DNA of 46,989 bases from Candidatus Omnitrophota bacterium (lineage in GTDB: Bacteria > Omnitrophota > Gorgyraeia > B26-G9), in the NCBI GenBank assembly GCA_018895275.1, contig JAHIOQ010000082.1, positions 1 to 46,989 on the forward strand. The letters run 5' to 3'. A program made the position numbers and the translations under genes. This document shows positions 16,611 to 46,989 of this stretch, piece after piece (the stretch's first letter is position 1; the number at the start of each line of letters is the position of its first letter). The notes below the pieces were generated by a model, which had not been told where the DNA came from, ran no database searches, and was given only the letters and a program-made list of their open reading frames with translations.

Positions 16611-16735
16611 CTCTCCATTCAATAAAGAAACCACTACCCCCTGTTTTCTCTCTTCATTACAACCTATTTATTATACCCCACATCCATTGATTTTTACTAA
16701 GGTTTCTTGAGGTTACTTGAAGTTTGCTCCACGTC

Positions 16736-20883: not shown

Positions 20884-20930
20884 AGCTATATGAGCTTATG
20901 AACCGTAAGCTATGAGCCATGAGCTAATTC
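20884..20930. repeat. AGCT(N)ATGAGC degenerate repeat
   Basis: Near-tandem units GAGCTATAT, GAGCTTATGAACC, GTAAGCTATGAGCC and ATGAGCTAATT. They are related to the repeat at 7662-7683. The repeat runs into the end of the PilZ gene and supplies the sequence around its stop codon. Confidence 0.5.
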
Positions 20931-21289
20931 ACTGCCTTATAATAACGTTCCACAAAACTATCGACAATCTTTTTATCCTCTTCTTCTTTCCACCAGAAAA
21001 AACTTACACCCATCCGGTATTGTTCGTTCTCCTGATGCGCCCAGGCGATTTTGCCGAATATGCGAATGGTATCAGCGCTTTTGCCCAAGCGGATATCAAC
21101 ACTTAGCGGTGTGCCTTCGGGAATTTTATCCTTTGAATAAATCCCGGCCCCGACCAGGCTGATATCACGCATCTCGCATTCTGTCCCGCTCCAGAATTGA
21201 AACCATACCCGGGGATCCAGCGGGCGCAGGGTTATCCCTACATCACGGGCAACTCTTCTTCTGCATTGCCTTTTTTCCGCGCTTTCCAT
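20924..21289 (-). CDS. PilZ-domain protein, likely c-di-GMP binding
   Basis: A stand-alone PilZ domain of 121 aa. An arginine cluster at residues 7-15 (RQCRRRVAR, satisfying RxxxR) is followed by DISLVGAG (Asp42, Ser44, Gly47), matching the D/NxSxxG motif. Together these are the two c-di-GMP-contact elements of the family. The beta-barrel continues with GTPLSVDIRL, IFGKIAWAHQ and YRMGVSFFW. It has no output domain, so it would act by contacting a partner, often envelope or motility machinery. It lies 52 nt downstream of the S23 gene and two genes from the giant envelope gene. That makes a link to regulating the giant protein possible but unproven. Confidence 0.85.
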   Translation of the reverse strand: MESAEKRQCRRRVARDVGITLRPLDPRVWFQFWSGTECEMRDISLVGAGIYSKDKIPEGTPLSVDIRLGKSADTIRIFGKIAWAHQENEQYRMGVSFFWWKEEEDKKIVDSFVERYYKAVN

Positions 21290-21315: not shown

Positions 21316-21346
21316 GGTTATAGGTTATGGGTTTCAGGTTTTAGGG
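21316..21346. repeat. GGTTATAGG-type repeat, downstream copy flanking S23 gene
   Basis: The plus strand reads GGTTATAGGTTATGGG then TTTCAGGTTTTAGGG, with a ~7-9-nt period. It supplies the TAA stop of the S23 gene (21341-21343). It is inverted relative to the copy at 21712-21741. Confidence 0.75.
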
Positions 21347-21706
21347 CTTTAAATTGCGCAAACTTCTTATAAGACTCCTCAACATTTTACTAATTTCGCT
21401 TAGTTTTTCTAAAATTGGATTAATTGTTTTTTCGTCAATATATCTTAACTCATTACAAATAATAACCTGAGTTTCTAATTCAGCACATGAGCCTAATGCT
21501 ATATATAAAAACTGTATATATTCGTTTGAATATTGCCTTGTTTTACCTTCAGCAATATTGGAAGGAATAGATACAGATGCCCTTCTCATTTGGTTTACTA
21601 AACCATAAATTTCTTCTTTAGGAAAATTTCTAGTAATAATATAAATCTGCTTAACTAAATCTATTGCCTTTTTCCAAACCTCAAGATCTTTATAACTATA
21701 TATCAT
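21341..21706 (-). CDS. Four-helix-bundle protein, S23/23S rRNA intervening-sequence family
   Basis: A 121-residue four-helix-bundle protein of the S23 type. Family signatures seen are YKDLEVWKKAIDLVKQIY, FPKEEIYGLVNQMRRASVSI, SNIAEGKTRQ, FLYIALGSCAELETQ and a final helix pair ending LRSLIRSL. Members occur inside 23S rRNA intervening sequences, next to diversity-generating retroelements (Avd) and as free-standing genes; the function of free copies is unknown. The gene is tightly enclosed by inverted GGTTATAGG-type repeats. The upstream copy provides its GGTGGGG ribosome-binding site and the downstream copy its stop codon. It begins 35 nt after the giant gene ends. Confidence 0.88.
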   Translation of the reverse strand: MIYSYKDLEVWKKAIDLVKQIYIITRNFPKEEIYGLVNQMRRASVSIPSNIAEGKTRQYSNEYIQFLYIALGSCAELETQVIICNELRYIDEKTINPILEKLSEISKMLRSLIRSLRNLKP

Positions 21707-21741: not shown

Positions 21742-22794
21742 TTACGCCGCCATATCAATCAACTCTCTCACATCCACGGGCGCGCCTTGTTTACGCGGTG
21801 AAGGCATTAAACCATCCAGCTTATCCCTGAGCGCGGGATCCGCAGCCGGAGGCGGAGGGGTTTCTTCTTTTGAGGCGGCTGGTTCCTGCGGTGCTATATC
21901 CGCTTTATTTTCGCCCAATTTTATCACGCTGACCGGTTCTTTCACAACCGGAAAACCGCGCGGATTTTCCATATTACCCTGCTGTTTGGTTGCTTCAAAA
22001 ATAGCGTCATACCTGGCCTTAAGCCCGCGGTTGCTCTCGACGGCTTTATCTTTTTCCTGCCCGGCCGTGGATTGTTCCTGATAAGAAGTATCCGCTCCTG
22101 TCCGCGTATCCGCAACCGCACCACCTGGTATTTCAGCCGTTGCCGCTGCGGGTACAATCGGTTCCGATTCGACAACGAGCATTTTTTGCTGTGCATCAAG
22201 TTTTACGGTCAACCCCAATATCGACACCGTGTTGCCGGACTGAAGCTCGCTCGCCAACGATGCCTGCGCATTAATTTGTTCAATGGTTCCTTTTAGCTGC
22301 GCAAATGTCTTATCCTTCAATGCCATTTCTATATTTTCAACGCCTGCGGGACTAACGTCCATAAGAACAAACCGATACCGATTATCTAGTTGTCCGCTTA
22401 TTTCCAGTTCTTCAAGTTTACTGCTGACATTGTGTAATAAATAAAGAAATTTCAACACGGCCTCTTCACGCGTATTTTTCAATAAATTAGAGGCATTAAA
22501 ATCAACATTACTAAGGAAAATTTCAAATTGATTTTTTTCATCAATCCCATTCTGCTCGAGTATTTTTTGAAGAGAAGCTTCCACAACAAGCGCCAATATC
22601 GTCTCCTTAAGTTTAAAATCATCTGCTATAGATATATCACTTTGACTATTTTTATTACCCACAATCAGGAATATTAAACGTTGCATATCCAGTTCCTTAG
22701 GCTTTTCATTAAATTCAATTTCCCTGTCCGGATCATCAGTCAAAATAATCCGTTTATCTTCGTCCTTTAACATCGCCTTTATATCCTTCTCGTT
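21742..22794 (-). other. Giant protein: C-terminal soluble domain and Pro/Ala-rich tail
   Basis: Residues ~8060-8270 follow the last membrane helix and form an alpha/beta-looking domain (RLIFLIVGNKNSQSDI, YRFVLMDVSPAGVENIEMAL, NTVSILGLTVKLD) that I do not recognise. The remaining ~140 residues are rich in Pro, Ala and Gln and look unstructured (PAAATAEIPGGAV, EETPPPPAADP), ending in a short ordered-looking peptide PVDVRELIDMAA. A conserved terminal peptide after a disordered linker could be a docking site. Confidence 0.55.
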
Positions 22795-25700
22795 TCTGGC
22801 AGAAATAAATATCATACCTGAACCTAATGTTATTATAAGCGGGATAAAATATTTATAAATATAATTAATAAACTGAGAAATAAATGAGCCATCCTCACTA
22901 TTAGGAATATAAGCAGAGACAAGTGTTGGCAGCAATATTGACGCAAAAAGAAAAAGTGTTATCATATGTAACTTATGACGTTTAAAAGTGTTGAGTATTC
23001 TTTTAAATAAAGGCATGTCTTGTTGTAATATCCCCTTTTTAAACTTCTCAAATCCTGGCAACAAGAACTGATATAAAGTTGGGCTACGTTCAGAGATTTT
23101 ATAGGTTTCAAAAATTCCATTTAATTTATTTGTTCTTTCTTCGGTACTGCTTTGAGGATAATCTTTAAGCCACGCTTCATAAATGAAACGAATCTGTGCA
23201 AATAAATATTTTCCCTTTGTCTTGATAAGGGTATCTTCAGTATATTTTTCAATCTGCAACTCTAAAATCTCTTTCTCTAAAATTGAAATGTCTTTATTAA
23301 TCTTCCAGAGTTTTCCTCGCCATCTACTTTCCTCTGAACCTTCAAGCCTCTTTAAAAATTCTAAACGTTCTTTTCTCTTCTCACCCCAGAGTGTTAATTT
23401 TTCACTAAACAGGGCAACTAAAACCTCCGGTAACTCTCCACGTTCTTTGCCCCCTTTAATAATTTCATTAAAATACTTAATTTCATTTTCAATTGCTTTA
23501 TCTAAAACTTCATACGGTAAATTTTGTTTTTTCATATCCTGAGAGATGCCCTTGGATAAATTCTTTAATGAAATAATCGAATGCGCAACTACTTTTGGCA
23601 TAGAAATTAAATTAGAGAACAGTCCCCTCATTGAATCTAAATAGTGTTCAAAGAAATTTACCTGTAATAATTTTCTTATCTTTTCTAAATTCTTCTTTGC
23701 CCAGAAATAATTCCCCTGATGGATAAAAACATTTACATCATAAAGCAATGCTCGGATATAGGCGATAGTAGCTTTATCTAATTGTCCATCAGAACCTTTA
23801 AATTTCTGCATTAAATTATTAGTCTCGGAAGTAAGCCTTAATTCTGTCAGTCTGCCTAAAATCAGGCTCAATGTTTTGAAGAGTAGCGCGATACCAATCA
23901 ACGACCCCATAAAACTCACTAATAGTTTCATCGGCAGGGATACCTTATAGAACAAGGCCACCTCAAATACTAAAATGCTGGATAATGGCACGACAAATAA
24001 GAAGAGGAAAGTAAATAAGGATAAAGTAAAAGAACGCAGGTATCTCGAATGCATACGGGCAATCTTCCCCGTGCCTAAGTACTGAGAAATTTCCCAACGG
24101 TCTAAAACCCTCTTTAAAAAATTATGTTTAAACTTTCCGATACGGGAATATTTTGAAGCCCAAATAATAACACCAAGCACTATAGATGTTACCACACTCC
24201 AACCTGTTAACGTAAGAGCAAAAACTCCTGATGAAACAAGCAGAGTAGCCATTGTCAAAATTACAAACCCGGTACTCCAACCTAAAAGTGCTGCCAAAAT
24301 CTCTCCTTTCGTGCTTTCTCCTTTTGGTACATTATTGGAAAAAGGACCAACCATAAGCCCGATACCAAAACCAATAAAAGGTAAAAGCATTAATACGTTT
24401 AACATGTCCAATGTTAGAGCAATTACACTTAAATATGAAAAATATATGAAAGATCCCATAATACGAGCAACTGTCTTTAAATTAACAAAATTGGCATATT
24501 TTCCTAAAGGATTAGTCTCGTCTCCACCTATTGTGGTTCTAAACCGCATATCTACACTCAAAGAATCATTTTTCTGTTCCCCCGATAATATAAATTCCAG
24601 GGTCTGTCTGATAATCTGGGCTATTGCATGAACAACAAGCTGAGACGCAAAAGTAAGTGCATCAATACCTCTATTGTATAACCAGCGGCCTAAACCAATA
24701 ATAAATCCACCCATAAGATACCCGATTATAAACCAACCCGGGGAAAAACCAAATAAAAGCGTAATCATACCACCAACTAAAGCCCAGGATTTATTAAAAC
24801 CTGCTGCTTCCAGATAATGCAGCAATCCATGCAGAGTCAATATCTGGTTAAATATCAAAGAATAATACCAGAAAACCAGTAAAATCCCCACAAACGGAGA
24901 TAGACCGGCAATAATAGCAAAAGGATAAAGAAGAATACCCAGTAATGCCCAGGGAGCAGATGAGAAAAAGCTGCCGGCATTAACACGTGGTTCCTTGGCA
25001 ACTACAGATAATGGGCCAAGCTCACTAATATTCTGCATTGTTTTATCAAACATCTTCTGATGAAGACCACCTGACCATCTGGGATAAGCAGAGTACCAGG
25101 CGGCATGGGAATAACTTTCTCTTTGTTTATTCCACATTGCTCTTGAACGACTGAATTTTGGGGTTATACCCAAACTTACCTTCATCCGTGCTTCCTGCTC
25201 AACAGCCCAGATATCCTCGCTAATTCCTTCAGCATCATGGGTAAAAGCTATCGCCCCAAATAAACGTGCCCAAAAACTCTTAATCAATCCTTGTTGCCGA
25301 TAAACATATGCGCTAAAGGGGTAAATTGGGTAGTTACGGTAGGCGAATCTTTCCAAAACCTTCCATAAAGAAGTGGACTGCATATTGCCCCAACCTGTTC
25401 CGATGCTCTCACCGGCTTTCCCGCCAATAAGCATAATGCCTTTGGTAAAAGAGCGATGTCCGCCTTCAATAAGTTCTGACGCTTTACCTATGTGATATAA
25501 TGTATTTGTAGTCATTCTTCCTGGAACAATAATCACCAAAGATTCATCACTTCGGATACGCTTTAAATCTTTTATAAATAGTTCGAGATCACCCACGGTA
25601 GCATTTCTATCAATGACCAATCGGGAAGTAATCTGCATAAAGGTCTCAGGATCCATCTCCTTACCGGTCATAAACGCGGCTTTAAAACCAAAAGGCGTCC

Positions 25701-28700
25701 AGTCATGGGTTACTCTTGCCTGAATACCAGGAGCAAGTCTCTCCAGTAACCGCGCCAGCAGATAGCGTTGGCCATGTTCTTTACCTTTTGAATAATCGGT
25801 ATTGGAAGGTTTACCTTTGTCATCATCTTTATAATAATTTGAAATAATATTCACCACAATATCTTTGTTATCCATCTGGTTATCAGCGTTTATCGCTAAA
25901 ACCATATCCACTAAATTTGTGCCGGTATCCTCTGACATACCTGCATAAGAACCAATTGCCACCAGATAGGATTTAATTTGAGCAGCAATAAAAAGCTTCT
26001 CTAATTCCTCCTGTGAATCAACGATAATTCTTAAATCATTATCTGCTCCCCAATCTTCTTCCTTACCCCTCAGCATTAGCTGCGAAGGATGAAACAAGGA
26101 AATCTCATTGCTTAATTCAGTTTTATGAAGAAAATCAAACAGCTCTTTTAATTTCGCCATATCACCCTTTATACCAAATGCTTCATTTATAGACCTTACC
26201 CCCCTATCTCCCTTAGACCAAAAATTCTGCCAACGTTTTAATTCTCTTTCCGTAGCCTTATCTACACCTGCGTTAAATACAAAAGACATCAGGGCATCAC
26301 CACCGGCAAACTCAATCAAAGTCTTACCGCCCTTATCCTTATACCTCTTAGCTTTTATCATATCCACCAAAGAAGTAATCCACCCGACAATCTTTTCCTC
26401 AAAAGTTATTAACAACATAATAATTGCCAATAAATAGGGAATAGTTACTCCGAATAAGGTAATTCCAGCGTATAAAAACGGCAGATTAACTTTGGCGATA
26501 TAAAGTATAGCGGTAAACAAACCTACCATTTTGAGCGGGAATGTTACAAGTGAGGCCGCAATGCCGGTCATTCCTACACTTATCGCATATCGCAGTAAAT
26601 ACATATTCAAAAAGAAGAAATAAGAGGCGAAAATAAATTGTAGATTAAGCCCTAATAAGTAGGTGTTGGTAAAAAAGATATTGATAACCGCACCTCCGAT
26701 AAAGGAAGCTAAGAAGAAAAAGCTGGTGTAAAGTAAAGTGTAATATACGATTGCCCCTGCCATACCCCAGAACCCGCCGGAGGGGGTAGACGGCTGGAAG
26801 TGATATCTTAGAGACTGAGCCATAATCGAACCTGGCTGGGATGGTCCGATATTGAGGCTATTTATAAAATTCAAAATCTTCCAACTCCGGCGAGGGTCAT
26901 CTTTTTTAATTTTATTTTTCAACAGGTAATCCTGTAAACCCGTCCCTACTTTCCCGCCAAGTAAGGGAGCAATCATCCCGAAAAGCTCTATAACAGATAC
27001 ACTCATAAAGAGGAGTTTAATCATAAAATGTACCTGAGTTAAAGCCGGTGCAAAGGGAATAAGGACCAAAAGGCCGGCAAAGAAAACGATTCTCCATAAA
27101 AGAGACAATGAATTCCATAATTCAGGATTCCAAAGGAATCCTTTTTTGATATTAATCTTATAGCTGTCCTTTATATTATTATTTTTATAGCGGAGATATC
27201 TTGTGAATTTACTTAATCCGCTAAATAATATAGCTAAACCCAAAATAGTTCCGGCTACCCAGGGTAAATAAGTTAAAGAGAAAAAGAGTTTAACCGTGGA
27301 AACCATATATGAAAGGACCGGCATCCCACCCATGCTTTCATTGAACGAAACAACAATCAGTAAAGCAAGTAAGAATATATGCGGCACAATTCTAACCAGA
27401 TTAATAAACCAGGGCCGGAAAGACAAAAGATCACTGCCTTCTCTTTGCTTAAATTCTCTATATCTGTCCCAAAATCTTTTTACAGACTCAGAACTTATGC
27501 CCAACTCCTCCCAAATCTTCCATTCCTTGGCGTTTAGTCCTTTAATAACAATACTTATCCATTTATCTTCTTTTTTAACCGATACCTTATCCGGCCGTGG
27601 GGTTATTCCGATACTTTTCAGAACCTGAACCATTTTTTCAGAGGTGGCCCCGGGTTTATTTTTCTTGATATCTATCAAAAGATTTCTTACCCGCACAAAC
27701 CCCTCTCCTAAGAACAAATCCAATCTACCTTTGAATTGATTGCTGTCTTCTATATCTTTACCATCTTTATAACCTTCTTTAATAACCCAGCGCAGTGTCA
27801 ATGAGCTGATTAAGGCGAATTCATCCAGACCATTTAGCCACTCATCATCAGACTCCCATAATTTTATTTCGGCTATTTCATTAAGTATCTCATCAAGCGA
27901 ACGTTCTATAATGTCCGGATATTCTTTCCTTACTATCTCCTCTAACTTAGAACGCCGCTGCTCAGGTTCTGGATTTTCTTTAACTAAACGAGCCATACGT
28001 TTTTGGAAATCAGGTTCTTTCTTGATTATTTCATCCAAAACCTCATCCAGTGGTCGTTCAATAAAGTCAGGGTGGTATTGTTTTAACTTCTCTTTAAATT
28101 TTATCCTTAACTCTTCCTCGCTGGAATCCGGACATTCCGCTCTCAGTTTATTCATTTCTGTCTGAACAAATTCTTCCTTTAATACATACTTTCTCCACGC
28201 CCAGATAGCCTGGTAGAGTGCCTTTAGATTAGCCAGAAAGTTACCTTCTACCGGGCCATCAGACAAAATAATCCTTCTTAACGACTCTCCTTCTGCCAAT
28301 CTGATAACTAATTGGGTTATTCTCGGAACTATAGACTCGGTATTCTCTACCCCCGCCTCTTTTAACGCTATATCCACTATCTCTTCTACCTCTGGTGTGG
28401 GCTGCTTTTGTACCGCTTTTGCTTGTACCTTATCCACTAAATTATTAACCACTGAATCTATCTGTACATCCCTAAGCTCCAATCCTTTCAAAATAATATT
28501 TATACCCTGTTTGAAATTATCTATACTCGGCTCTTCCTGAGCACGGTACTGCTCTGGAACTTCAGGGGCAAAAAGTGCATCAACTCTCCTTTTCTCCGCA
28601 TATTTACTCAACTCGTATGCCTTTGCTCCCTCTTTTTCATCCTCTTCCATCACTTTTTTATATCTTGACCTTCCATATCTTAACCAACGCCAAATCCAAC

Positions 28701-31700
28701 TCATCATCTGTGTAATTAACATAAGCATAAAAAATCCGGCTATTATGCTTACAACATTTATCTTGTCCAACGTCCCAATTTCCCATCGTTTGCAGAAATT
28801 AGTATAATCCTGCCATAGTCCCTTATCTTTTTTCTGAGGGACCAGTGTTTCTGTTTCAATATTATTCCGCGGGTAACTCCCTTTATCGTCTATGGATTCT
28901 AACAATCTAACCGTGGTTAACAAATCTAAAGGATAAGTATTATCATCACGTCTCTGAATAACCTCGCCTTTTCTTTGATAAGTCAAAATATACTTTGCTT
29001 GCGATTTCGTATAAATACTTGGCAGGATACCGCCAAATTTTTCTTTTAATTTAAATAGCGAATTCTGGGCCAAAGAAAATGCCTCATTATAACCAATAAG
29101 TTTTGCCACTTTCATAAATAGGAAAGTAAGCCTTGAGGAGATAACCTCTTCTCTCGTAAGTGGCACCCCATAATCTAAACCCCAAATATCATCTATAACC
29201 ACTCCATGTGATTTTGCCAGATTTTCTAACCAGAGTTTTAGTTTGGCGCTTTCATTCGCATCAATAATATCATCCTTATTATAAATACTATACATCATTT
29301 CGATAAACGCCAACCAATCTTCGGTTGAAGTTATAGTCTGCTTGGCTAAGGCTGCGGTATTCGTATTAACCTCCACCACTTCCTTAATACCCTTAGGGAT
29401 AACTCCATTCGAGGTATAGCGTTTTTCAAAAACCTCAATCCATTTTTCCAAATCGGTTAACTGACTATTAACAAAGTCGTTGAAGTTAGTATCTATCCCT
29501 TCTGTCTGCCTTAACATTAGAAGAAGTTTATAGGCTGATAATTGTGTGCTCACATTATAATCTCTAAAACGTGACCACTGCCTAAAACCATCAATAAATA
29601 CCTTATCCGGACGATAGCGGTAATGGGTGATACCATAGTTTAGGTAAACATCCTCATTAGCCTTTTGAGCCTTGGGTTTTATATTAAACAGGCGATAAAA
29701 TAAACTGCGAAGATATTGTCCGACTTTAGTTGCTTGCTCCGGAGAAATCTGTTCTCCATCCAATTGTTTGGGACGGGTATAAAACTTAAAAACTGTCTGG
29801 AGTAAATCTTGAGTAAATCCAAGATACCGTTTATCCCCTGTAGTTTTATAGAGCTCTAAGGAAACCTCGGCTATAGCAAGTTGTACATCACTGGTAGGTT
29901 CACTGTATGCATCCTTTTCAAATCGTACATCCTTTAAAAGAGGTTCACCGGATTGAACATCATAAGAATCACTTAGAGGGTTTTTGCTGTCTAAATAAAA
30001 ACGCCCCAAATAAAAATCAACTGCTTTTTGCGCTTGTTTTACATAGCCTAATCTCAAAAGTTCCTTAATTAATTCTGCTTCCTGAACCGTAGACACATAA
30101 CGTTCATTAATATAATGGGGGATTAACCCCGTGGGAGTAGAAGCCTTAATATTTTTTTCAATTCTATCTTTGGGCAATACAATTGAACCAGCAAAACTTT
30201 CTTTTTTCATTGTCTCCCAGGGCAGTGTATCATTATCGACGAATAATTCTGCGAATAAAGGTAATTTATCAATCTCACGGGCTAACTCATCCGCATTTTC
30301 TATGTTTTTAGTCATCTTTTCACCATTAACCAAGTGGTCATAGGACCATTTAAAAAAGTTAGAATTAATCCTGTTGTTAATATCCAATCTGTCCTTTTTT
30401 ACTACCACCGCATTCTCAAAACCATAAATTACGGTTATCGGCACCTCAAAGGTTATCTCATTGGGATTATACTGATGCCACTCTGGAGACAAAAACCCAA
30501 TAGGCACAGCTCTTACCTCTAAGATGTCTCCTTTGGTTATTACACTGCTAATACGGAAAAACTCACCGTCCTGAGGGGACATTGCATATAATGGTTTGGG
30601 TATATCCGGAAGGGTAGTGTCAATAACCAGCGAATAAGGATAATGAACATCCTTGTCCTTCCGATTATAAATGACTAAAGTTAAATTTTTGTCTTCAAAG
30701 AAGATTTTATATACAGCATCTTCTCTATGTAAAGGAACCTGTTCTGCCCTTTTATATTTTTCTTCTCTTTTATAACTTTCCGTTACGATATATCTATTAT
30801 TACTTTGTTCTTTATTTACATAAGTATTTACTATAACTTCTTCTCTTTCTTTGGTACGTTCTCCACTAGCCTTATCATCCAAAATTATTAAATCTGAAAC
30901 ACCGGCCCAGGTATTATTTGTAGGCTTTTCATATTTAAGCTGAATATCTTTTACATTGGCTATATCCAGACCAGCCCTTTTTAGTGCACTAACCGAAATA
31001 ACAAATATCTCTTTATTTGCCTTATCATTAAAATCAACTTCCACCGTCGTTATGCGGTGAGGTTCTTTATGATAAAATATATTTTCTCTCCTTACCAGCG
31101 GTTCAAAGAAAGATATGGTTTTGGGCTCTGACGTTATATTATTAATGACTCTTACTTGATTACCTTTTTTATCCTTAAACAACACCTCTTTGGGTTTTAT
31201 TCCCTTTGTATAAAAAGCGAGGAAATAGGTATCCGCAAAATTACCTTTCCTGGAAAAAGTAAATTCTGGTTTACCAGTAAGCTCATATCCGGGATAATTA
31301 GCAAAAAATACCTTTGAAGGTGGCAATTTATAAACAAATCTTTTATCCGGCGGTTTTGTAAGTCCGAAAAACTGCTTAAATAAATTTATAAACCCGGTAG
31401 GTTTTTCAAACTTTTGGTCGCATATAACCCAGACATTGCCTTGCGGGTCAAACCAATATTCCGAGGAATATCCTTCTTTCCCATTTTTAAAATGTCTTTC
31501 TACGGTATAAACCCGCCATTCACCAACTCCCAAATTTGGATAATAAGGATTGTGTTTAAAAATATATTTAAGGGTTAAACGCACATCCTTAAAAGCTCCC
31601 CCATCTAATTTTTTAGCTGCTATAACCGTGGGTATTTCACGTAGGTTATCCTTATTTATAGCAATCGCCTGGGCTATCTTTTGATTAGAAAATTTATAAC

Positions 31701-34700
31701 TTCCATCGGCTTGAGGAATGAGATAACCAGGGCTATACTCGTAAGTAATATCTTCAATGGGTTTCATCTCCTTCCTTGTAGCCAAAATACTTTTCTGGTC
31801 ATAGACTGGTTGTTTTTTACTCTCTATTAAACTCAAACTTGTAGATAAAGGTTCTCCTTTTTGACTGCGTATATCTACTGTATTCTTATTCCATATCCCT
31901 GCTCGCAAATCCACATTACGTATCTCTAACTTAGGCTCATCAGAACCCAAAGAACCTTTCGGCAACAAATGATTTTCATGGAATTTAATTACTCCTTTAA
32001 GCTCTCTATTTTTACCGGATTTCTCATCGTATAATTTTGCTTTATATCCTCCTCTATCTGTATACAAACTTACTATGGGTGCTTCAAACGGTTTTTCCAA
32101 GTCAAAATAGGAAATTTCTCTTCCGTTGGTTACTGTAAATGACATTATCCCAGGGGTAAGTGGAATACTGCCTCCTTCCGCCATAAGTATCTTATCACCA
32201 AAAATAGAAACTCTATATTCTTTTACCTTATCATATGGCCCACCCAATAGATTTATATTACCAAATCCTCCTTCTTTCTCCGTGTGAAGATATTTCTCAT
32301 ATACCTTAATGTATCTGTGGTCTTTTGTCATTAAAGTCACTGACCGCGCCATATCGGTTCCGCTAATCCATTCCAAAGGAATAGAAATTTCACCATTGTC
32401 AAAAATGGTATATTGCTGTCTTCCAAAAGGATTATCAGTGATCGGGAAAAACTCCATTCTGCCTGGGCCGAAAGCGGGCTTTACCCTTACTTTTTCTAAA
32501 AATTCTCCTTCCTCTTTGACTTCACCTTCATTCGCATATATCCATCTTGTTTTTCCATTTACTGCGGTAACAGTTTTCTTCCCCCGTTCTGTCCATCCTT
32601 CATAAGAAGTTTTACTTTCTACAGTTATCTCATTGCCAAAAATTGGCTCTTTAAACCGAACTGTTTTATTGATATCTCTTCCTTCCGCATCCTGAATTAT
32701 CCTATAAACGCCATAAGATCTTCCGTTATGATAGAGAGTTACGCGTGAATTACGCTGCTCGTTATTTGGATATTGAAAATCATCGGCAATAGCCGAAAGA
32801 ATATCAAACTTTTTTGTCTTTTCATTCCAAACATACCTTTCTGAGGCAATCACAATACCACTTTTATCGTAGCGGACACGCCGTAACAATTCTTTGCCTA
32901 CCTGGGTATCAATCAATGTGCCAAAAGCGCTTAGGCGGTCTTCTTCGGTTATTTTTCTAATCTGTTTATCAAATCTATACCATCTATCCCTCTTAATCTT
33001 TGTTGTCTTTGCCGTTAAAGAATATTCACCTTTAGTGGTATCCACAATTTCCTCGTCAGATTTCAGTTGTGGGGCAGTTCCATTTTCTACTGCCTTTTGA
33101 ACCTGTTCCAGATATGAGAGAAGATTTTCGATAAATTCTCTTTTTTGTTGTGTATTGAATTTCTTTAGCAACTCCAGATATCCTTCTTCCCGCATCTTCG
33201 CTGAAGCTATGGTTATCCCTTTACTCTCTAACTCATATCTAGAAAATTTATTATTTGATATCCGGCCTTTCTTTATGGTAAGAATAGGATTTTCATAATA
33301 ATGAGACCAAACATAAATCGTCTCCCGTCCGCCTCTTGAATGGTCAATCTTAAGTCCAATTAGCCGGCGGGTCACATTATCATAATCCAGTGTCGAAATT
33401 TCAGCTAAAAGTTTACCGGTATCTTCGCTATAAAATAGTATCTTTTCAGGTATGAATCCATTATAAAATGAGGGATTATATTTAGACTGTATTTTTACAT
33501 TTAATTTCGTAGTCTCACCAAAAATATCCTTAAACTCATCTAAAAAAGTAGACATCATCATTTGACCAAAGTATGAAAGGTCGGAAGTAAGAATTACTTC
33601 TATATCCTTCTTAAGATTAGTGCGGCGTATGGTTAAGTTATGATTTTCAAAATCTCTTTTTATAACCTTTTCCTGCCAGCCAAGTCCACCACGTTTTGGC
33701 TGAGTCAATGTTTTCCCATCGTTATACCAGATTTTTGAATCTACAATATGTCCCAAAGTATCAAAAAAATTGAGTTGACTTTTACCATAGCTACCTTTTG
33801 GGGCTCCTTCTTCACAGGTTATAACCCATTGTGCTTGGCTTAACTCAGGACCAACAAAAACCTCAATTTGGGTATTGTTAAGTGTAGGATTGTGCACTGT
33901 GTAAGCAACCCTTTCCTTTTCCACATCCTGTGAAATAGCCTCGCCTTTAACTAATAAGACACCTTCTTTATTTCTTTTTTCAGTCCAGTTCTCAACATCT
34001 TTTCTCGCCTCCCACTTATCCACAATTCCCACATTGTTATAAAATAGTTCAATAGTATAAGGCATCCCCGTGGAGGATGTCCTTTTGATGAATTTTAAGC
34101 CGATATCTTTCTTGAAGATAAGCCTTTCTTTAACCCCGTCATCGGGGTTAACCCTTTCTCTTTCCCAGTCTCCTGCCGGGAAAATCAACTGCATTCTGAC
34201 CAGTTCCAATTTGCCATCGCCGTCAATATCAAATCTGCCAAAATACATCCAGCCGCGTCTTTGAATCCGCAGCCTTTCCTTCGGAGGAAGTTTTTCTATT
34301 TCATCCGACGCTTTATTAAGCGCCTCTCTGCTGAGGATAAATCCGGGTTTGCCATCTTTCGTACGGAACGGTTTTCCTTCAACTGTGGTTATTCCAATAC
34401 CCCCTGTCCCTGTTACCCTCGCCCGCTCATATAATCCGGCGTATTCGAGCCTTAATCTTAAAAGCGCAATATCCTTGACTTCCTGCTCCTTGTCGGAAAT
34501 CATGGTTACCTTCACACTTCTCTGCAAACCCGCGTCCCAGTAAGAGAAAATATTACGTTCGGTATCATACCAGTCCAGATAATTTGTTCTTTTACTCGGG
34601 ATGATACCTTTTTCTTTTTTGTATAATAATTCAAGTAACAGGTCCTCGCTTTCTTCCAATGCCTCCTTGCCCTTGGCCATTTTTACTGTATATTCACCAT

Positions 34701-37700
34701 CAGTGAGATCTTTCATCATCATCTTTTCTTTATGAGGATTATATAAAAGATCAGGGGTTATGTCTTTTCCGGCAGAATCTCCCCTGATATATTCGCCTTT
34801 TAGCGGATTGTAACCGGCCTTGGCAAAGGCAACCCAGTTCGAAGCCGCGGTACTGCCAAAGTGTTCCGGCACCTTCCAATTTGAGTCTTTAAACAGCGCA
34901 ATCCCGCTTTTTGTCGCCAGGGGATAAACTATTCCCTGTTCCGCTGCCTTAATACCGGCCTTATCCATTTCTTTTATATGTTCATTGTACCGCGCCATCT
35001 CCCACTCAGCTTCTTTTATCCATTTCCTTTGCTCATCCTCGGTTTTGCTCTTTCCGGCCAGGTTTTCAAAATAGCGTGCCATCTCAAGATGCGCCAAGGC
35101 ATCCATAGCTGTAACATCAATAAAACCGGCTGCCTGGCGCTCTCCTCTTCCTTGTTTATTGGTACAGTCATGAAGCGTTACTTCCACTTCTTGCCCATCA
35201 ACCCGTTTTAGTTTATCGCTAACCAATGTTTCTGTTTCTTTATTCCTCCACATTGACAAAAGGTTATCAAACCCGCCAATCTGCTTGGATATTTCCGCGG
35301 GGCCGTCTTTCAATATCCGCAGGCCCAAAACATCCAGAGCAAAAACTCCATCCCTCGCAAACAAGCCGGTTTTTTCCTCCAGACGCGTCCCGCGATTGAA
35401 GGCGTTCTTTTCTTTATCGTAGAGCCCTTCATAGAACCACTTCTTTTGTTTCTCTTTGCGCGTCCGGATTTCTTCTGCCAGTTTTGAATATTTTTTATCC
35501 TTTGCTATTACCTTCTCCAGGTCTTCGGAAAAACTCTCCAGCACGGTATTCTCTTCCCCGGACTGCAGTTCATGATGCCTTTCTTCTGCGCCGCGGATGT
35601 CTTTTCTTTGCGGCGCTTTTATCGCTCCGCCGTTTTCCTTCTGCCGTTCGGCAAGGGCCTTATACATCATAATGGCGGTATCAAGATACTTATCATCTCC
35701 GGTGCTTTTGTAGGCAAGCAGCAGCATTTTACCAAACCAGCTCATCGGCCCGGTGGTAGCGTATAACTCTTTTGCCCGGCCAAAAGATGTTCCGGTATAA
35801 AACATGTCCGCAATGCCTTTAAATGATGAATCCGTGTCATCAAAAATCCAGATGCTCTGGGTATCAACAAGATAGTCGGCGATAGCGAGCAGCCTTGTCT
35901 GATCTTTGGCGAGATTAAAGAGGAATCCGCTTACTGAATTCCCATACAAACTAGCGTCGCCGTGCGGTTCCGGATATCCCTCATCCCCGGGCAGCATAGA
36001 ATACTCTGCAATTGTCCCGCTCATCGGATTCATGCCCCGCGAGGAAAAGTCATAAATATCCTGCAGCGGCGCTTCGCCGTCTTGAGGCGAAAGCTGAGAC
36101 TTAACAATCGGCGCCGGCGACATAGATTCATATGTAATAACCCCGCCCTCTTCTTTCTGCATTTGGGTATGAGACTTATAATTATCAAGGTCGCGCACGG
36201 CTTCTTCTTCCATGTCCTTAAATCCCGTCAATCCGGGGATTATAATCTCTTCTTCAATCTCAACCTTATTGTTTTCCGGATTATAAACCGCGGTACGGGT
36301 TATATATACCGGCCAGGGAATACCCAGGGCGTCAAATTTCAAGTCTCCAATCTGCTGAAGATTTCTTTTTTTATAGGCCTCTTTAGTGTCATATACCCTG
36401 CCGACTCTATCGCCCTTAATCTTTATGCCAATGGCATAATTCGACATCAACTTATCAAGAAATTCACGCGAACGTTCCGGATTGGAAAACTCTCTCCAGC
36501 CAAGCACGTACATCTTTATATCCTTAGCCGAGAATTTTTTTGTGTATGACTTCGCGCTGAACATCTTCTCCAGGGGGCTTGAGATATCAAGGGTCAATCC
36601 AAAAGAAGTAAGTAATCCTTTTAATCCGATTACATCCGCGGTCCGGCCCAGGCCAAGAAATTTCTTGCCGCTTTTATCCGTAATATTAACTATCTCTCCC
36701 ATCAAGGACATAAGATTTACCTCATGGCCGCGGAAGTATTTGAATACCCCTCTTAAAAGCCCATCATCGCCTCGGTCAATACCGGTTGCCTGGGCAATGG
36801 AGTCAAACATATACAGTGCCCATTTAGCGTAGCCGATATATTTTTCATTGTCCAGGTTCGCGTTTAGATATTCATATAGGGCCTTTTCATCGCCTTTATA
36901 TTTCATTGCCCCTTGAATAATCGCGCTGAAGCGCTCATACGCCCCCTCCTTGCCGTACTTTTTCTCAAAATCTTTAAAAAATTCTGAAATATCTTGAAGA
37001 TTAGGAGATTCCGGTATAGCGGATAAGCCAATAAGCAAATTAGACATAACCTCCGCCGCGCCCACTGCCTCCGAGCTGGTAAGAGCGCCGAATATCGGTA
37101 AAATACTCTTATACTTCAGCCATAATTCCTCGCTCCTTATCGACTTTTTCGTATTTTCAATCTTAAACCGGGTGAGCAAATCACCGTATATCATCAATCC
37201 GAGTTTCCTTTCCAGCGCCTGCCGGCCAAAGAATACGCGGTCCCCGGTTTCCGGATTTCCATCTTTTATCGTATCTTTGATGATAAAATATACATCCTTT
37301 AGATCCGGATTTACCTCTTCTAACTTGCCGTTAAAATACTGGTAGGCGCCAATCTCTATTTTTATTTCTTTACCGGTCTTCTCATCTTTTAAATAATTGC
37401 CGTCTTTATCCTTTGGCTGCAGGTATATAATCGGAAAGCCGAGTTCATTCTTTTCCGTAATGCCGTTTTCATAACGGGCCGGAATAATTTCATAGGCTTC
37501 CCAAGCCCTGACCGGCGTATCCCACATACCCGGATATTTGCCTGGGCTCATCTGCGCCGCGTACTGCTCCTTTTCCATTTCTTTTATTTGCGCGTCTATT
37601 GCCTTGCGGTACGCCTCTTTTTTATCGATCTTCTGCTCCAGGAGTTTATCGCTGAATACAATCCTGTACTCCTCGCCGGTTTTTGGATTCACGATCCAGG

Positions 37701-40700
37701 CCTGATACGATATGCCGTTTTTGTCGTTGTATTTTATCTGGGCCGGCGACAAATCGCTTCCTTTTCCATCCGGAGTAGGTTTCTCAAGCATCGAAATCTC
37801 ACCGCGCAGCTTCATTATCCAGCCTTCAGCCTTAAGATAGGCCTTTAATTCCTTCTCCGTCTTAAAATACAAATATTTTCCCTGTCTTTCTAACACCTCA
37901 TAGCGCCGGCCTTTTTCCCAATTAACAATAGCCAAGGCAATGCCCTCATCATTCAATTTATGGCGCAAAGCATCCAGCCTTGTTCCCGCCTGCACCTGCT
38001 GCATGGCTTTCTCAAAAAGCGGCTGGAGGCTGATAGTGGCAATACCATTGACATATTCCACTGGTATGATATTTTTATCCGCTATGCTTTCTTCGTCCCA
38101 GTCTTTGGGCTTATTTTTTTCTTTCCAGCTCTGAATCGCTTTTTCGACATCCTGATTCAATTCATCCCGGTTCTTGCTAAGGTGTTTATTATAAACCGGA
38201 TTCTGCCGCTGCCATTCTTTTAAACCGTCAATTTTCTTTTGAATCTGTTTCTGATGGCCTTCATTCCTGGCCTTGCCTTCGGCAAGAGAACTAAATAAGC
38301 CTAAATAGCTGTCAATTATGTTATTAATGATATCCTCCGCGAATATCTCCGCGATCACCCCGGATGTATGTCCGCTCAATACCCTGTATTTAAACACATC
38401 GTTACCGACAACCGTAATAATTGCTTCTTTTACATAATAAGGGGTGTTATCATCATCATCGAGGATATTTGAAATATGTTCATAGAGCAGTAAAAGTTTC
38501 TCCGCGGCAAACTTTTTAATAACCACCGGAGAACTTTTCTCGTTAAACCCCTGCTCTATTATTCCGGGGTATAACTCTAACACTTCTTTATAGCCTTCAA
38601 TAATCTCCTGGATTAACTCTTTCTTATCCCCATCAACCGCGTTTTTAACCGAATCCCAGAACCTGAAAAAGGCCTCTTTGTCTTTGGTTAAAGCCTCTGC
38701 CTGAACGCGCTCTAGATTTGACACCTTATTCTTATCCTTTTCGTTTATGCTTATAAGATTTAATGTGTCCGGAAGCTCAGCCCTTAAATTAGTCAATTCC
38801 GCGTGACCTTCCTGAACGGACTTCTCAAGGTCAAGGCCTTTTCCGACAAAACGATATGCCAATTTCAGATTTTCAAAATTAGCCAGATAGTCTCTCATAT
38901 TATCAAGATAGGCATTACGATATGAATTAACTTTATCAAAAGAAGCGATTACCTCTTCTTTGGATATCTGCTTCTGCCGATATTGCCGGCTCTTTGCCAG
39001 GTAATCTTCATAATAACTCATAAACGCCTCTTGGCTTGCCTCGAGACGTTCTTTGAATACCGATTGTTTTTCCCATAACAGTTGTATTCTTTGAGCATTA
39101 TTTGCCAGCTCTTTTTCTCTTTTAAATTCGTCAATTACCATCGAATAAAGAGGCCCTCTTATATCCCGCGCGATGGCATTGATATCCGGAGTTTCATAGT
39201 ATTTGCCTATGGCTGCGTCGTCTATACCGCGGGCTTTATCTTCAATATAACCGACAAGCGTCCGCTCTCTGCCCTGACCCAGCGCCCTCATTTTATTTTT
39301 GATTATTATTGCCGCGTCATTAACCCTTGCCTCAAACACTTTTATTTGCGGAAGATTACCCACCGCGCCCTTGAACGTAAGCATCAACTTTTCTTTATCC
39401 GCCTCGTTATAATCTTTTAATCCTATGGAAAGTTTATCCAGGTCTTCTATCTTCAATTTCACTTGAGCTGGAATACCGGCCATTACCTTAAGCCGGGCTT
39501 CAATCTGAGCCTTGCGCTGCTCAATGGCCGGGCTTGGGAGCATGCTGCTTAATTCATTAATCCAGGCAAGTTCCGTGATTAAATTCAAAACTTCCGCCTC
39601 TTTCTCGGCAAACTTTGCCTCGAAAAGACGCTTGGCGGCATCTTTCTCTAAAGCCATTCTTCGGGACGGTTCCGTGTAAATAATCTTTTCTTGGGGAAGA
39701 AGTTCAAGCGCGCCAATGCCTTTATTTCCATCAAAGATATAGGCAGTATCTTGATATGAACGAGTAGGAGAGGTTGTGCGGTCAATCCCTTCTGTGGCTA
39801 AACCCGGATGGAGATAATTAAGATACGCTCCAAAAACATCATCACTATTTTTAATCGCCTCGGTTACAAGGCCGGCAATACTTGTATCCACTTGTTTTTT
39901 ATCTAAAGTCGGGGACCCTCTTGTTTTATTTATATCTGAATCATCTTTGGTTCTAATACCCAAAGATTCGGCATTAACGCGGCTAGCGACGACAGCATAA
40001 TAATCGCCATACTGTTGGTCTGAATTCAGGTCTGCCCGCGCCTTTGCCTTTTCATTTTGAGCGGAACTGCGTTGAAGCGATAATAGAGCTTTCTTTTTAT
40101 CTATCGCCAGCTCAAACTCTCTAATCCGTTCTTCTTTCTTCATGGCCTTGGTATCAGAGAAAAACTCACCTATTAAATTTATGGCCCTCAGTCCGGCCCA
40201 CCATAAAATTGGCCCGGGATTACCGGTAGCGGCCATAACCATCTCAGAAAGCGGGATATCGACTTTAAATTCTCCGCCGTTCTTTACCAGATTCAACTGA
40301 CTGTTTAAAATTTCTATCTCGGCTTTAGTTACCTCTTGCTCAAATTTACTTTTATCAAAATTTTCTCTCAGCATCCCTTCTATCTCTGACTCTATCTTCT
40401 CTAACGGCACATTTATCTCAATCTCAGCGCCAGCCGGCATGTCCAGCAGATAGTTAAGCGCGGCTTTTTTCGCTTCCAAATTTTCTTTAGCTCTAAGTTT
40501 ATGCACTATAGCCGAAGGATAACTCCGCTCATCTATTTTCTCTAAAGAATCATCCAGCTTTTTAGCGTAAAGATAATCAATCTGAGCCAGCAAAAATCTG
40601 GCTTTTAACTCTCCTGTGACTAAATTAAGTTTCGCCTCTTCACTCAGTTTTTCAAATTCCCGAATCTCTTTATCATTGTTTTGGCCAAAGGTAAGCGCTA

Positions 40701-43700
40701 ATCCCACGGTTAAACTCGGTTTGCCTTTGGTAATCCCGGGCCCAAGTTCCAAATCAGCTTTTTTTACCCCTAATAATTTTGCCAGCCAGCTTGACCCCTT
40801 ATCCAAAGACATCCGTGCCCGCACCGTATCCAGCTTCCTTTGAGCCTCGTTATAAGTAAAATCCGCAGGGGCGACTCTCTGGTTATAGGTCTTAGATGGA
40901 TCATTGATTACCGTTTTTCCCGCTTGAGATTTCGGGGATTTTTCCGGTTCGGCTTTGCTATTTTTAAGCAGCGCCTCGTAGTAAGCCCTTTCCGTTTCCA
41001 GTTCCGACTTATATTCGACAATGGATAATATCGCGTCATTTTTCTCTATTATTGCCAGCAGCGCCTCATCCATATTTTTCCAGATCTTCCATTCTTTAGC
41101 TTCTTTTTCATTATTAAACGCCTGAATGCTATTAGCCAGATCATCCCGCATCCTTTGTTCGGTTTTACTTAAGCTGTTTATCAACTCAGTCTTTAGACTA
41201 ATCATTTCCGGGATAATCTCTATGATATGTTTTGCCTGGCGCAGGTATTCGATTTCTTCCGCTTTTAAAGCGCCTTTCTCTGCCTTTACTTCGATGTTTT
41301 CGTTGTCGGATTTATTATCCGCGTCATAGAGAGTAATTGGGATACTCAGGCGCAAGCCCGCGTCTTTACTTTGAAGAACAATATCAGTGGGGCTAAAACC
41401 AAATGCAACCCGTTTAATCCCGCTCTTTTTAAATAACTTCGCGATTATTCCGTCTTCTTTAATTTCACCGCTTATTTTCATCTCATCCATTAAAGACAGC
41501 CAATATTTGCGCATGTTATCTGTCTGAGAGCTGACAATATCCATCGCCTTTGGGTCTTTAAAATCCGGGATTCCATCAATTATTTTTTTCATATCTTCAC
41601 CATCCGGATTAATATGCGTCAGCGCGGCAAACATAGCCTTTTTAATCCTAAACTCACCTTCTAAATCAACCATCTGGGAATTCAAGTCTTTCTTGGCCTG
41701 AGAGCTTTCCGAAGCGCTCAGATCCAATTCCATTTTTGCCTTTTCATACGCCCATTTTGCCTTAACCATTTCCAGATATGATTTGGTGGTCATATTTATC
41801 GACTCTTTTACCATCAGTCTTGTCTCATGCAGCGCTCTGTTTAATTTAACAACCGCTAAAGCCGCATCCCCCTCGCCGACATTCTCCAGGCCGAATTCCA
41901 TCCCCAAATCAAACGGAAACCGCTGCTCCAATTCGCGGGTAACATTACCCGTATCTACAGACACCCCATACCATGCATTATAAAAAGCAACCACCTTCGG
42001 CATGTTATTTCCGATATCCTTTATGGCCTTAATAAGCCGCTCATTAAATTCCGTGTTATTCGCCAATACCGGTAAAAATGCCCGGGTAAGCGGATCCGGC
42101 GCCTTTTTATACTTTTCCTTCATCGTGTCATTTATTTTTTCTAAAAATTTTACTTCATCACCTATTGCTTGAGATATAACCTCCTCTCCGCTAATAGACC
42201 GCCTTGCCCCAAAACCAACTTCTGTTTGAGCACTGCTATAACGTTTTCCAACTTCAGCAAAGATATCTACTCCAAACACTTCTTTCGAAATTTTACCTAA
42301 CCAGGTATATGTACTTCCTTCCAGGCTGCCCTTTAATTCAACATCTATCCCCGCCGGTAACTTTGTCTTAAGCTCAACATCAACACCCTTGGTTTTCTCA
42401 CCCATTGTGCCTTCGACTTTTCCCTCGATCACTCCCCCGATTCTAAACCCCAGTTGTGCCCCCGCGGAGGTTTGATTATACCCTTCACTATTGTCTTCCC
42501 GCTGAATAAACAACTGCAACGTAAGCGCGTCTTTATCTTGCTCCTTATCTTTCTTCTTCACTAATTTGAGTAAGTCTATTTCCGCTCCGATTCTCTCAAA
42601 CAAATAATGCATCTTCGCCCCTTCTACCAATGCCGTATAGAGAGGGCTTAATCCTTCTTTGTCCAATTCCTTATCTCCATGCTGCCAGGAGAAATCCTGT
42701 TGATACGCGTCCTTTAACCAGCCTCCGGAAACCTGTCCTATCAATTTAAATGCCGGGCTGAGCTTATACTCAGCAATCACGGTTCCGTCAATGCTTGAGT
42801 AATCCTTGCTAAACTTAAAATCCGCGGGGACATCCAAAGAAAGGCTGGCTCCGATAAACGCCTTATGTTCCCCTTCTTTTTCCGGGTCAGGGAATAACAC
42901 CATGGTATAATCCTGGGTAATTATTAATCTATACCTTTGTTCTTCCGCCCGCTCCTGAAACTCTATCTGCTCCGCAGTAGGCTCAACTGCCCTGCCTCTG
43001 TCTTTAAACTTTATGGCCGGATAAATCTGCTTACTTAAATCAACTGTTAACGCGTAATATACCGGTATATTCTCCGGGTTGACCAATACCTCCAGGCCTC
43101 CGCCATACGCCCCCCGTTCAGGGTCATCCCTTTTAATGTAATAAATAAACGGGCTTACCGTAACCCCTTTATCTTTAAACGAACCGAAAAAATTAACCCA
43201 TTTTAAATATGCCTCCCGGGACTCGCCGAAACTCATATGGGTAACAATATAATAATCGCCGCCTAAATCAAACTGCTCCGCGAGCAATCCTAATTTTTCC
43301 AGAACATCCATCGGTTTATCCAACGAAGCGCCTTTCAACGTTTCCACCAGCTCCCGCGGCCGGTTAGGATCGCTTAGTATTCTCTTAACAAATTTTTCTA
43401 ACGAGTTCTTATCCAGAACCATGGAAAGATTATCTTGTTTTTGCGTATCGAGCTCGGCAATAGCAATATCTTCAGCGCCCAATTCTCTTAATCTCTCCAC
43501 CTCTTTTTTAACCTGTTCTCTCGCGTCGGTTATTTTCGTATCCTGAAACAGCGCCCTGGCTTTGGCATGAATAAAATCGTATAATGCCTTAATCTTCTCT
43601 TCCTGAGTCTTACGTTTTCTATCCCATATATTGCCATCCTTATCGTTTAATTTTTTCAGCCAACCTTCAACCTCTTCTATCTTCTCGTTAATTTCCCTGA

Positions 43701-46700
43701 TAATATCAGAGCTTTCTTCTAATTGCTTATCAAGTAACGCCGCTCTATCATTATAATTATTTATTAAATTTTGTGTATTTTCTTCCATATCTGGAAATAT
43801 CGTATTCAATAAAGTCTTTCCATCTTTTTCAGCCTTTTTCAAATAAATCACTTTTTTATCCGCGTAATCCTCGGACAATTTATAATATTCTAATTCTTTC
43901 CCTATTAATTTTATGTTTCTATCAACAATCTCCACATCAGTTTCACTGGAAGTTCCGTTAATAATCTCCAAATTTTTATTGATGGAATCTATCTCCATAT
44001 CCACAAGGCCGGTCTTTCCTTCTTTTCCGAGGAGAGTTTCAATCGCAGCTTTTTCAGCTAAGAATACATCTTTTAGCAATGGAAGCGTATCTATATACAT
44101 ATTTGCTTTTTCAATTCTAATCTCAGCGTCTTTTATATAAATATCCAGTTCCGCTATCTTAAGCTGCCAACTCGCTATGAGGCCATTATCTCTTTTATCT
44201 TCAGGCTTTTTGTTCTCGTCTTCTATTCTCTGTTCATAAACAGCCTTCTTAGCCTCTGTCTCTTTTTTTGCTTTTTCCGCGGAAATATAATTACCGGAAC
44301 TGTTTTTTTCTGTACAATCTGGATCAATAACTTTTTTTTGATATTGTATCCTCTTGTCGATAGAAACAGGTATTCCCTCCTCTTTAAAGAGATTATCCGG
44401 GTGGCCCACATCCAATGTAGCTTCATTTGTCGGGTCAAGATAAGCCTGAATTTCAGAAAGGCGTTTTTCAGCTTTAGCTTCTTCCCCCGGCCAATATTTA
44501 ATTCCAGCGCTCAATAAAGAACTTTGAAGATCAAACATCTTCTTTAACACAATTTTTGTATCAGTATAATAATCTTCCTCCGCTTTTGCCTTAACTTTCT
44601 TTCTCTCTAAAATGGATAAAAATGCCTCCCCGCTACCCTCATGAAGCTCTGAATCCTTTTTTAAATCGTCAATCATCATTCGCGCAAATGGGATCTTTTT
44701 ATTCAAATTTTTTATTTGTAACTTAATCACTTCCTTTTCCTCATCAGTCAGATTAGACGATTCTAATCTCTTAGTAAGAGCCGTAATGTCCTTTTCCGCC
44801 AGCGCTATCTGTTCTGTCCAGTACTCAATTCCAGGCTGAATTTTACTTGGCTCCAGAATAAATGGATCGATACCCGGATAATTCTTTGGCGAACTTCCAA
44901 TCTCATTTAATCTTTTTACATCTTTTGTTGCTTGTTCAATTTTCTTATCATTGTTTTGAATGTCAGACTTAGTTATTATCCCCAAGAGTCTATTAATATC
45001 TACCTTTTCTCCAGCTTTCAAAGCTTTTTGCGCTTCTTGCCAATTTTTTAAATTATCTTCTGTATCTTTGAGTTTATTTTTTGCATAATCAATCTCCTTT
45101 TTTGCTTCTTCCAGTTGTTCTGTAAGCTTTCCAATAGCATCTTTAAGCGCAGCGGCATTATCACCTATCTGTCTCAGAGAATCATTAAACCCTGGCATTT
45201 GCCCTGTTAACGCTTCTTTTGAATTTTCTATATATTGTTTTAAGGTTTCTTGATATTTAAGATCCGCCTTTACCAATTTTTCCAGTTGCAGCTTTAGCTT
45301 TGCCACTGTGGCTTTATCAATATCCGCCTTTCTCTGCTCTATGAAAAATTTGGCGCTTTGGATAATTACCAATAGCCGCGCATATTCTCTGTCGCGGTTA
45401 TCTTTTGCCTGTTTTACATTATTATATCTTGCCAGCGCCTGTCTTAATGTCTCTTTAGCCGCGTTTATTTGTTGTTCTTTAGCTGTATCCAATTTTTTAG
45501 TTTTTATCTCTTCTTCGGCTTTTTTCGGCTTCTCACTGAGCATCTCATTGACTTTGCCCCTTACTGCTTTTGTAACTTCGGACCTACCAAGTTGATTCAG
45601 TATACTGCTTCTCTCCCCGGGAACGGCTAATTTGCCTGGCTTTTCTTGAGTTTTCGGCAGCGATTTTTCTATAACTCTTTTAGATAGATTATTTGGATTA
45701 ACATTAACAATATTTCCCGTCATCTTCTTCTCCCAAAATTCAGCAGGGGTCTTAAAATTTCCCTTGATAATTTCCAGATGAAGCTGCGGCCGGCCTCCAT
45801 TTTCTTTGTTAACGTTAATCGCGTTACCGGTTTTGCCCACGGTTCCAATAGTAGTGTTAGTTGAAACAGTATCTCCTGCTTTCACCAAATTATCGCGATT
45901 ATGCGCGTATAAAGAATAATAGCCGTTTCCATGGTCAATAATGACATATTTGCCGTACCCATTACTTTTGCCATTTTTACTTTCTTCTCCAACATCAAAA
46001 ACCTTACCTGCCTTTATCGCATAGATAGGGGTTCCTTCCTCGGCGTGATAATCAACGCCCAGATGAGGCGGCTCATCCTTAGTTCCGTTTTCATTATTTC
46101 TATTTCTTCCCGCGCCAAATTGTCCTTCATCAGGAATATGGTAGGCGGTTCTAATCGGTGATGAAACCTGAGATAGTTCTTCTGGTGGTGGGGTACCGCC
46201 TGCTCCTGTAGTCTGTCCTGCCGGCCAAGAATCATCAACCCGCGGATCCGATTCTTCCGTTCCCGGCTGTTCTTCTTTCTGCGGCAGGGGATCATTCTTT
46301 AAAACTTCCTGCATCCAGATTAATAATTGTAAACTCTTTTTAAGCTCAGCAATCTTTATCTCAAGTTTCGCGATATAAAAAGAAACTCCTTTTTTTGACG
46401 CGGCCAGCTTTTCTTTTTCCTTATTAAGATCTTTTGCCGAAAGCGCGGAATTTATTTCGGTAAGCTGCTGTTCTATCTTTTTAGCCTCTTCTTTCTCTTG
46501 ATTAGTAGCTTTTTCTTTTATTTTTTCAAGTATGTAATTTTGCTGGGCTAATATAAGCTCCGTCAACTTCGACCGCGCGGTTATCTTTTCTAGCTCTGTT
46601 TTTGCTTGAGCCGCTTTCTCCCGAGCCTGTTTTATTCTTGAGGCGAACTTATTCTCGGCATCGGGAGCATATCTTTTTATGGCCGAGGAAAACTCACTGT

Positions 46701-46989: not shown

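Follow-up and report, generated by a model that had tools for sequence, protein, structure and literature searches.

A giant open reading frame of an Omnitrophota bacterium combines a predicted processive glycosyltransferase with TolC-like, toroid and M23-type parts

The locus described here raises the question of whether an open frame of some 25 kb can be a genuine gene and, if so, what a chain carrying such a variety of parts might do. The window (the whole stretch of 46,989 nucleotides analysed) is an entire contig of a 163-contig, 2.56-Mb draft genome, 88.7% complete. A sequence-only reading of it had claimed a single frame of at least 8,414 codons; the one open frame is real, with the count now set at 8,415 sense codons and with the true N-terminus absent from the contig. 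At 25.2 kb it is a giant ORF in the sense used for Omnitrophota (single ORF >20 kb), and an ORF listing across the same 25 kb gave 195 aa as the longest ORF in all other frames. That the assembly is a draft and the frame stops at the contig edge would suit a misassembly or a chance open frame, but several independent genomes carry collinear, uninterrupted frames (4,054–7,288 aa) and a relative of 45,379 aa lies unbroken in a single-contig genome (G034, with the window-type C-terminal module in its middle), and an artefact is therefore exceedingly improbable. Within the same family the collinear frames are of 7,288 aa in genome G003 (window aa 423–4251) and 6,939 aa in G008 (window aa 1104–4322), and in G004 contig pieces span window aa 507–5386 and include the glycosyltransferase (GT) core. 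The source genome itself has a paralogue on contig C153 (1–13781, equivalent to window aa 1783–4432) with both contig ends open.

Giant ORFs are already known from Omnitrophota and the function of their products has been called poorly understood (PMC10066038); such proteins are also mentioned, with West-Roberts 2023 (bioRxiv) as the source, in PMC12057145. The window frame shares phylum, length and many transmembrane (TM) helices with them (PMC10066038; West-Roberts 2023, cited in PMC12057145). The earlier claim that no system of this kind has been described thus holds for the order of the parts and fails for the proteins as a class: the literature searched gave no description of a protein with its parts in the order M23, barrel-like, TolC-like, toroid, beta-rich, TM/GT core. 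Coordinates of all features are given in Table 1.

Table 1. Features of the giant frame, from its N-terminal side onwards, and of neighbouring genes in the window
Feature	Residues (aa)	Coordinates	Strand	Basis or remark
Giant open frame		21742..46989	(-)	8,415 sense codons + stop; 5' end truncated by contig edge
M23 domain	308-410	45760..46068	(-)	Pfam 4.6e-25; HxxxD and YAH kept, HxH = QLH
Helical, coiled-coil-like stretch	430-1250	43240..45702	(-)	Read from sequence by eye
Beta-barrel-like region	1258-1603	42181..43218	(-)	About 17 predicted strands, antiparallel-looking (AlphaFold model)
TolC/OMF-like region	1666-2200	40390..41994	(-)	Long helices and beta hairpins; Foldseek
First alpha/alpha toroid, epimerase-like	about 3640-4140	34570..36072	(-)	Profile A7
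Beta-rich region	about 4330-5740	29770..34002	(-)	Read from sequence; parts conserved in other giants
Second helical domain (second toroid of the earlier reading)	about 5790-6075	28765..29622	(-)	
First TM segment	6079-6097	28699..28755	(-)	Hydropathy; predicted outside to inside
TM bundle preceding GT core	6531-6861	26407..27399	(-)	Hydropathy and model
Processive glycosyltransferase core (predicted)	about 6885-7330	25000..26337	(-)	Foldseek to HAS, Fks1, BcsA, Chs; motif conservation
TM bundle following GT core	7345-7711	23857..24957	(-)	Hydropathy and model
C-terminal part	TM pair 8010-8062	21745..22965	(-)	Tail ending RELIDMAA
23S rRNA intervening-sequence-type four-helix-bundle protein		21341-21706	(-)	1.6e-43; between giant ORF and PilZ gene
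PilZ-domain gene, possible regulator		20924..21289	(-)	Pfam PilZ 6.2e-12
HsdM-like methylase ORF		14532-16634	(-)	Apparent DUF559-like nuclease segment inserted, 'PSPSGRR..' repeats either side (by eye)

Compared with the G003 giant, the window frame is short of about 2,000 N-terminal residues. The G003 giant opens with a hydrophobic signal peptide, after which come SecA DEAD, P-loop and cross-linking domains (PF07517, 3.5e-69). In genome G011 one frame on contig C76 runs from SecA through M23 and LysM to the start of the barrel region, with the signal-peptide part in a separate frame of its own directly upstream. A 1,731-aa frame on contig C109 of the source genome carries a degenerate SecA domain as well as a signal peptide and runs off the 3' contig end, which makes it a natural candidate for the lost start of the window gene or of its C153 paralogue; as no exact overlap between C109 and the window contig was found, the join was dropped and is not claimed. 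G165 encodes a complete form of 3,961 aa with a signal peptide and some 2,280 residues predicted to lie outside, beyond which come TM segments and the GT core. In the window frame hydropathy indicates no TM segment upstream of aa 6079, and the first TM segment is richer in Lys/Arg on its C side in all seven proteins checked, so that the chain would run from outside to inside. Given the lack of earlier TM segments, this positive-inside pattern and the signal peptides of complete relatives, an extracytoplasmic position is the most likely one for the ~6,000 N-terminal residues, in agreement with the placement first proposed.

SecA-like ATPase domains were seen in the giants of G003 (contig C93, aa 284–1090) and G011 (C76), in the C109 frame and, at two places, in G034. 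As the domain follows a signal peptide in G003 and C109, an ATPase would be placed outside the cytoplasm there, provided that the domain is not degenerate and the topology is as supposed. The West-Roberts 2023 preprint reportedly describes giant Omnitrophota proteins with a SecA-like N-terminal part. At the other end of the chain, a C-terminal ..AI or ..AA is common in signal-peptide Omnitrophota proteins, including some giants (4/6 of those with a strict N-terminal motif vs 16/334 other ORFs; examples are G011:C76 (L158), G008:C13 and window 21742–21770), and possibly represents a sorting motif. The G008 giant ends in RELFDIAA where the window frame has RELIDMAA.

The M23 domain scores 88.1 bits against a Pfam cut-off of 28.7, so the M23 fold named by the sequence-only reading is well founded, yet one catalytic His is substituted: in the alignment the first His of the HxH motif is replaced both in the window (PQLHLE) and at the equivalent position in G011 (CVHFE). 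Relatives have LysM, or M23 plus LysM, in what appears to be an anchor slot near this position, a LysM signal being found there in G003 (weak) and G008. As a catalytic His is absent, the degenerate M23 domain seems better suited to anchoring in peptidoglycan than to hydrolysis or attack.

An AlphaFold model of the barrel-like and TolC-like regions, built from an 11-sequence alignment, has a low mean pLDDT of 55.5. When it was compared with the PDB by Foldseek the best 25 matches were all TolC-family channels (OprM, OprN, VceC, CusC, CmeC and TolC; E from 5.4e-4, prob 0.92–1.0, at a model pLDDT of 55, with TM-scores of ~0.2–0.4 by target length), and VDAC, FimD, BtuB and Tom40 ranked after them as weaker matches. 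These matches to a low-confidence model agree with the barrel-like and TolC-like parts suggested earlier. The window region shares long helices and beta hairpins with the TolC/outer membrane factor (OMF) family, from which it differs in being embedded in a giant chain and in the lack of a match to the OEP family (Pfam PF02321), none being found in 11 members. The TolC likeness is thus fold-level support from a model and not family membership. TolC functions as a trimer, and the chain has a single protomer-like unit. The region is conserved between genera over more than 1,000 residues; the barrel/TolC half was seen in the same family only (7/12 genomes), and most GT-core giants of the phylum are without it at the sensitivity used.

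Downstream of these parts the earlier reading had placed two glycosidase-like toroids of the GH94/GT84 kind. The first would be an epimerase-like alpha/alpha toroid, possibly an alpha/alpha6 barrel of the AGE/cellobiose 2-epimerase kind, its profile (A7) matching cellobiose 2-epimerase entries in the PDB over short stretches (E=2e-5); a weak C5-epim_C match was found in three of seven members, and C5-epimerases are alpha/alpha toroids too. The second helical domain is conserved in G348, G186, G276 and G165 and common across the class, and gave no Pfam or PDB family match. A glycosidase assignment was borne out for neither, and the toroid assignment not for the second. As the giant frame gave no GH94 or GT84 match in Pfam, that identity was rejected; nor are such proteins named among the 50 Foldseek matches listed, and the GT core resembles processive GT2/GT48 synthases instead. 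Cyclic beta-1,2-glucan synthase (GT84-GH94) is similar in having a membrane GT and a toroid on one chain, whereas in the window the toroids precede the GT.

The C-terminal part yielded the clearest fold assignment. A model of the GT core from 18 sequences (pLDDT 70.9, pTM 0.75) gave 27 best Foldseek matches in the PDB that are all processive synthases (hyaluronan synthase, Fks1, BcsA, chitin synthase, plant CesA and CslF6; E from 6.9e-5, prob 1.0 for most). With TolC-like, toroid and GT folds all matched and the topology as given above, neither of the outcomes that the earlier reading had named as refuting it was obtained. PDB sequence searches with the core gave no match, only the fold search being successful. 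The core carries, in order, K7103, D7127-R-N, E7175 (ExG), SED at 7257–7259, KxRE at 7288–7291 and RWxxG at 7304–7308; K, the first D, E7175, SED and RW are invariant across the 18 divergent sequences and N occupies the third D-x-N position in 14 of them. In Fks1 the corresponding residues are K1082, D1102-A-N1104 (replacing DxD) and E1221/D1222 (PMC12715860), the window D-x-N and ED matching the latter two. About eight hydrophobic segments (a hydropathy count with one added by eye) lie between the first TM segment and the core, which would therefore be placed in the cytoplasm. The membrane bundle enclosing a GT-like core, as proposed from the letters, is accordingly upheld by hydropathy, model and fold matches.

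With GT2 processive synthases (BcsA, HAS and Chs) the window core shares the fold match, the ED and RW motifs of a cellulose-synthase-like fold and a TM channel, and differs in having no Pfam GT2 match and D-R-N in place of DxD. With the GT48 enzyme Fks1 it has in common the fold match, D-x-N, ED, the Lys and a GT domain set inside a TM bundle, but PF02364 (GT48) has no match in the window core or anywhere in the source genome. Neither profile–profile comparison of the core with GT48 (E 0.16–0.38) nor HMM searches in either direction were significant, and a direct sequence link was rejected; what connects the two families is therefore the fold, the order of the motifs and a single bridging locus (G070:C61), where the same frame is matched by the GT-core profile (1.3e-4) and by PF02364 (1.7e-14). 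As sequence-family tests failed, the giant is not classed here as a member of GT48, GT2, OMF or GT84-GH94. Its C-terminal part is, by prediction from the model, a membrane-embedded processive GT of the GT2/GT48 superfamily.

Profile searches found the GT core in 21 of 384 genomes of the phylum, for the most part within very long frames (the longest, of 70,450 aa, being the one open frame at G144:C2 around 109442–110695), the short ones being those truncated by contig ends. In a genome-collection scan of limited sensitivity the core matched Omnitrophota records and one further bacterium only; a single-protein query scan of genome contigs gave no match. Two families (G131:C8:88179–90959 and G240:C51:12285–15425) carry the core circularly permuted at the same breakpoint, the equivalent of window aa 7279–7775 coming first and that of aa 6894–7277 second, with KxRE, RWxxG and SED kept. 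The fungal/plant beta-1,3-glucan synthase family PF02364 was found in 39 of the 384 Omnitrophota genomes at E <= 0.01 (32 above the curated cut-off) and in none of 14 control genomes; sister giants have the true GT48 domain that the window lacks. These domains (loci L120–L148) lie nearly all within very long frames, as at G061:C24:6725–8110, in G037:C16 (21,496-aa frame) and in G118:C2 (42,913-aa frame), and against solved Fks1/GSC2 the G061 segment scores E=1.4e-47, its D-x-N and ED residues being retained. The N-terminal half of the G008 giant is orthologous to that of the window frame, but the C-terminal part includes a GT48 domain (2.7e-22) preceded by six TM segments, much as the Fks1 GT domain sits between TM6 and TM7 (PMC12715860). 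That two synthase types occupy the same slot of orthologous giants argues that the N-terminal half works jointly with the polymer-making C-terminal half. Within the literature searched no paper links 'glucan synthase' with 'Omnitrophota'.

Read together, the parts and their order, the fold matches, the motif conservation and the topology signals suggest a single-chain, synthase-dependent machine for the synthesis, processing and export of a polysaccharide, to which we assign a probability of about 0.5. In such a machine an N-terminal signal peptide, encoded on the missing upstream contig, would export the chain, and the GT would polymerize an NDP-sugar in the cytoplasm and lead the product out through its own TM bundle in the manner of BcsA, HAS and Fks1. 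The toroid and beta-rich parts could then process the polymer in the periplasm, and a probable trimer of the barrel and TolC-like parts would pass it through the outer membrane or hold it there, while the degenerate M23 domain might tie the chain to peptidoglycan. One chain would thereby be inserted into both membranes, and we know of no protein proven to be so. In the cellulose (Bcs) and alginate (Alg) systems the membrane GT, the periplasmic alpha/alpha enzyme or epimerase and the outer-membrane exit are separate proteins. The window resembles these synthase-dependent systems in its predicted membrane GT, putative alpha/alpha part, outer-membrane-exit-like part and nearby PilZ gene; unlike them, it has the part types, as judged by fold, on one chain, and its exit part is TolC-like.

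In an alternative to this proposal the chain would be a glycan-making coat or adhesin protein with its GT in the inner membrane, and the barrel and TolC-like parts would be no more than spacers in the structure or repeats at the surface, not seated in the outer membrane. The low confidence of the model, the missing OEP family match and the absence of these parts from most GT-core giants would all suit a coat or adhesin, but the top 25 Foldseek matches are without exception outer-membrane channels and the region is conserved over its >1,000 residues between genera, and we hold this alternative to be unlikely. A weapon used in contact or predation, in which a chain exposed at the surface turns its enzymatic parts on the wall or surface polysaccharide of a neighbour, seems less probable again. 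Such a role has been proposed in Velamenicoccus archaeovorus for its giant protein, and in a relative with a predatory life style giant-ORF peptides were up 3-fold in attached cells (PMC10066038), an observation that favours a weapon, as does the presence of M23 and toroid domains; against it, M23 is short of a catalytic His in G011 as in the window, a synthase with a predicted cytoplasmic core is the enzyme with the best support, and relatives have synthases in the same slot.

It might also be asked whether the GT-like core polymerizes anything, or instead acts as a transferase of single sugars onto lipid or protein, or serves as a structural part without catalysis. Its D-x-N where GT2 has DxD and its distance in sequence from every characterized GT could be taken in this way, but D-x-N is used by Fks1 itself (PMC12715860), no substitution of ED, K or RW occurs among 18 divergent proteins and the fold matches are to processive synthases, which leaves a core that is no polymerase only a slim chance. 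The polysaccharide machine can be extended to a wider proposal, in which it is self-contained and inserted in both membranes and two related families can supply the synthase in its slot, a bacterial GT48 (FKS1) beta-glucan synthase being one of the two; with a GT48 domain in that slot, the Omnitrophota giants would be a bacterial reservoir, and possibly the source, of the fungal/plant enzyme. We regard the whole of this extension as doubtful. With the synthase-like module (21/384) and the GT48 domains (39/384), many giants gain a testable role in building surface polysaccharide, and a single chain reaching both membranes would be a novelty for protein targeting. Antifungal drugs are directed at enzymes of the Fks1 family (PMC12715860), and a bacterial branch of it would inform their origin and mechanism.

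The PilZ gene shares its strand with the giant ORF and is the second gene downstream of it. PilZ domains are of the c-di-GMP-binding type and regulate cellulose and alginate synthases elsewhere. No PilZ gene was found downstream of the G008 giant, and the gene was rejected as a conserved partner. Elsewhere in the window, the HsdS- and HsdR-like ORFs adjoining the HsdM-like ORF appear by eye to be rearranged or truncated.
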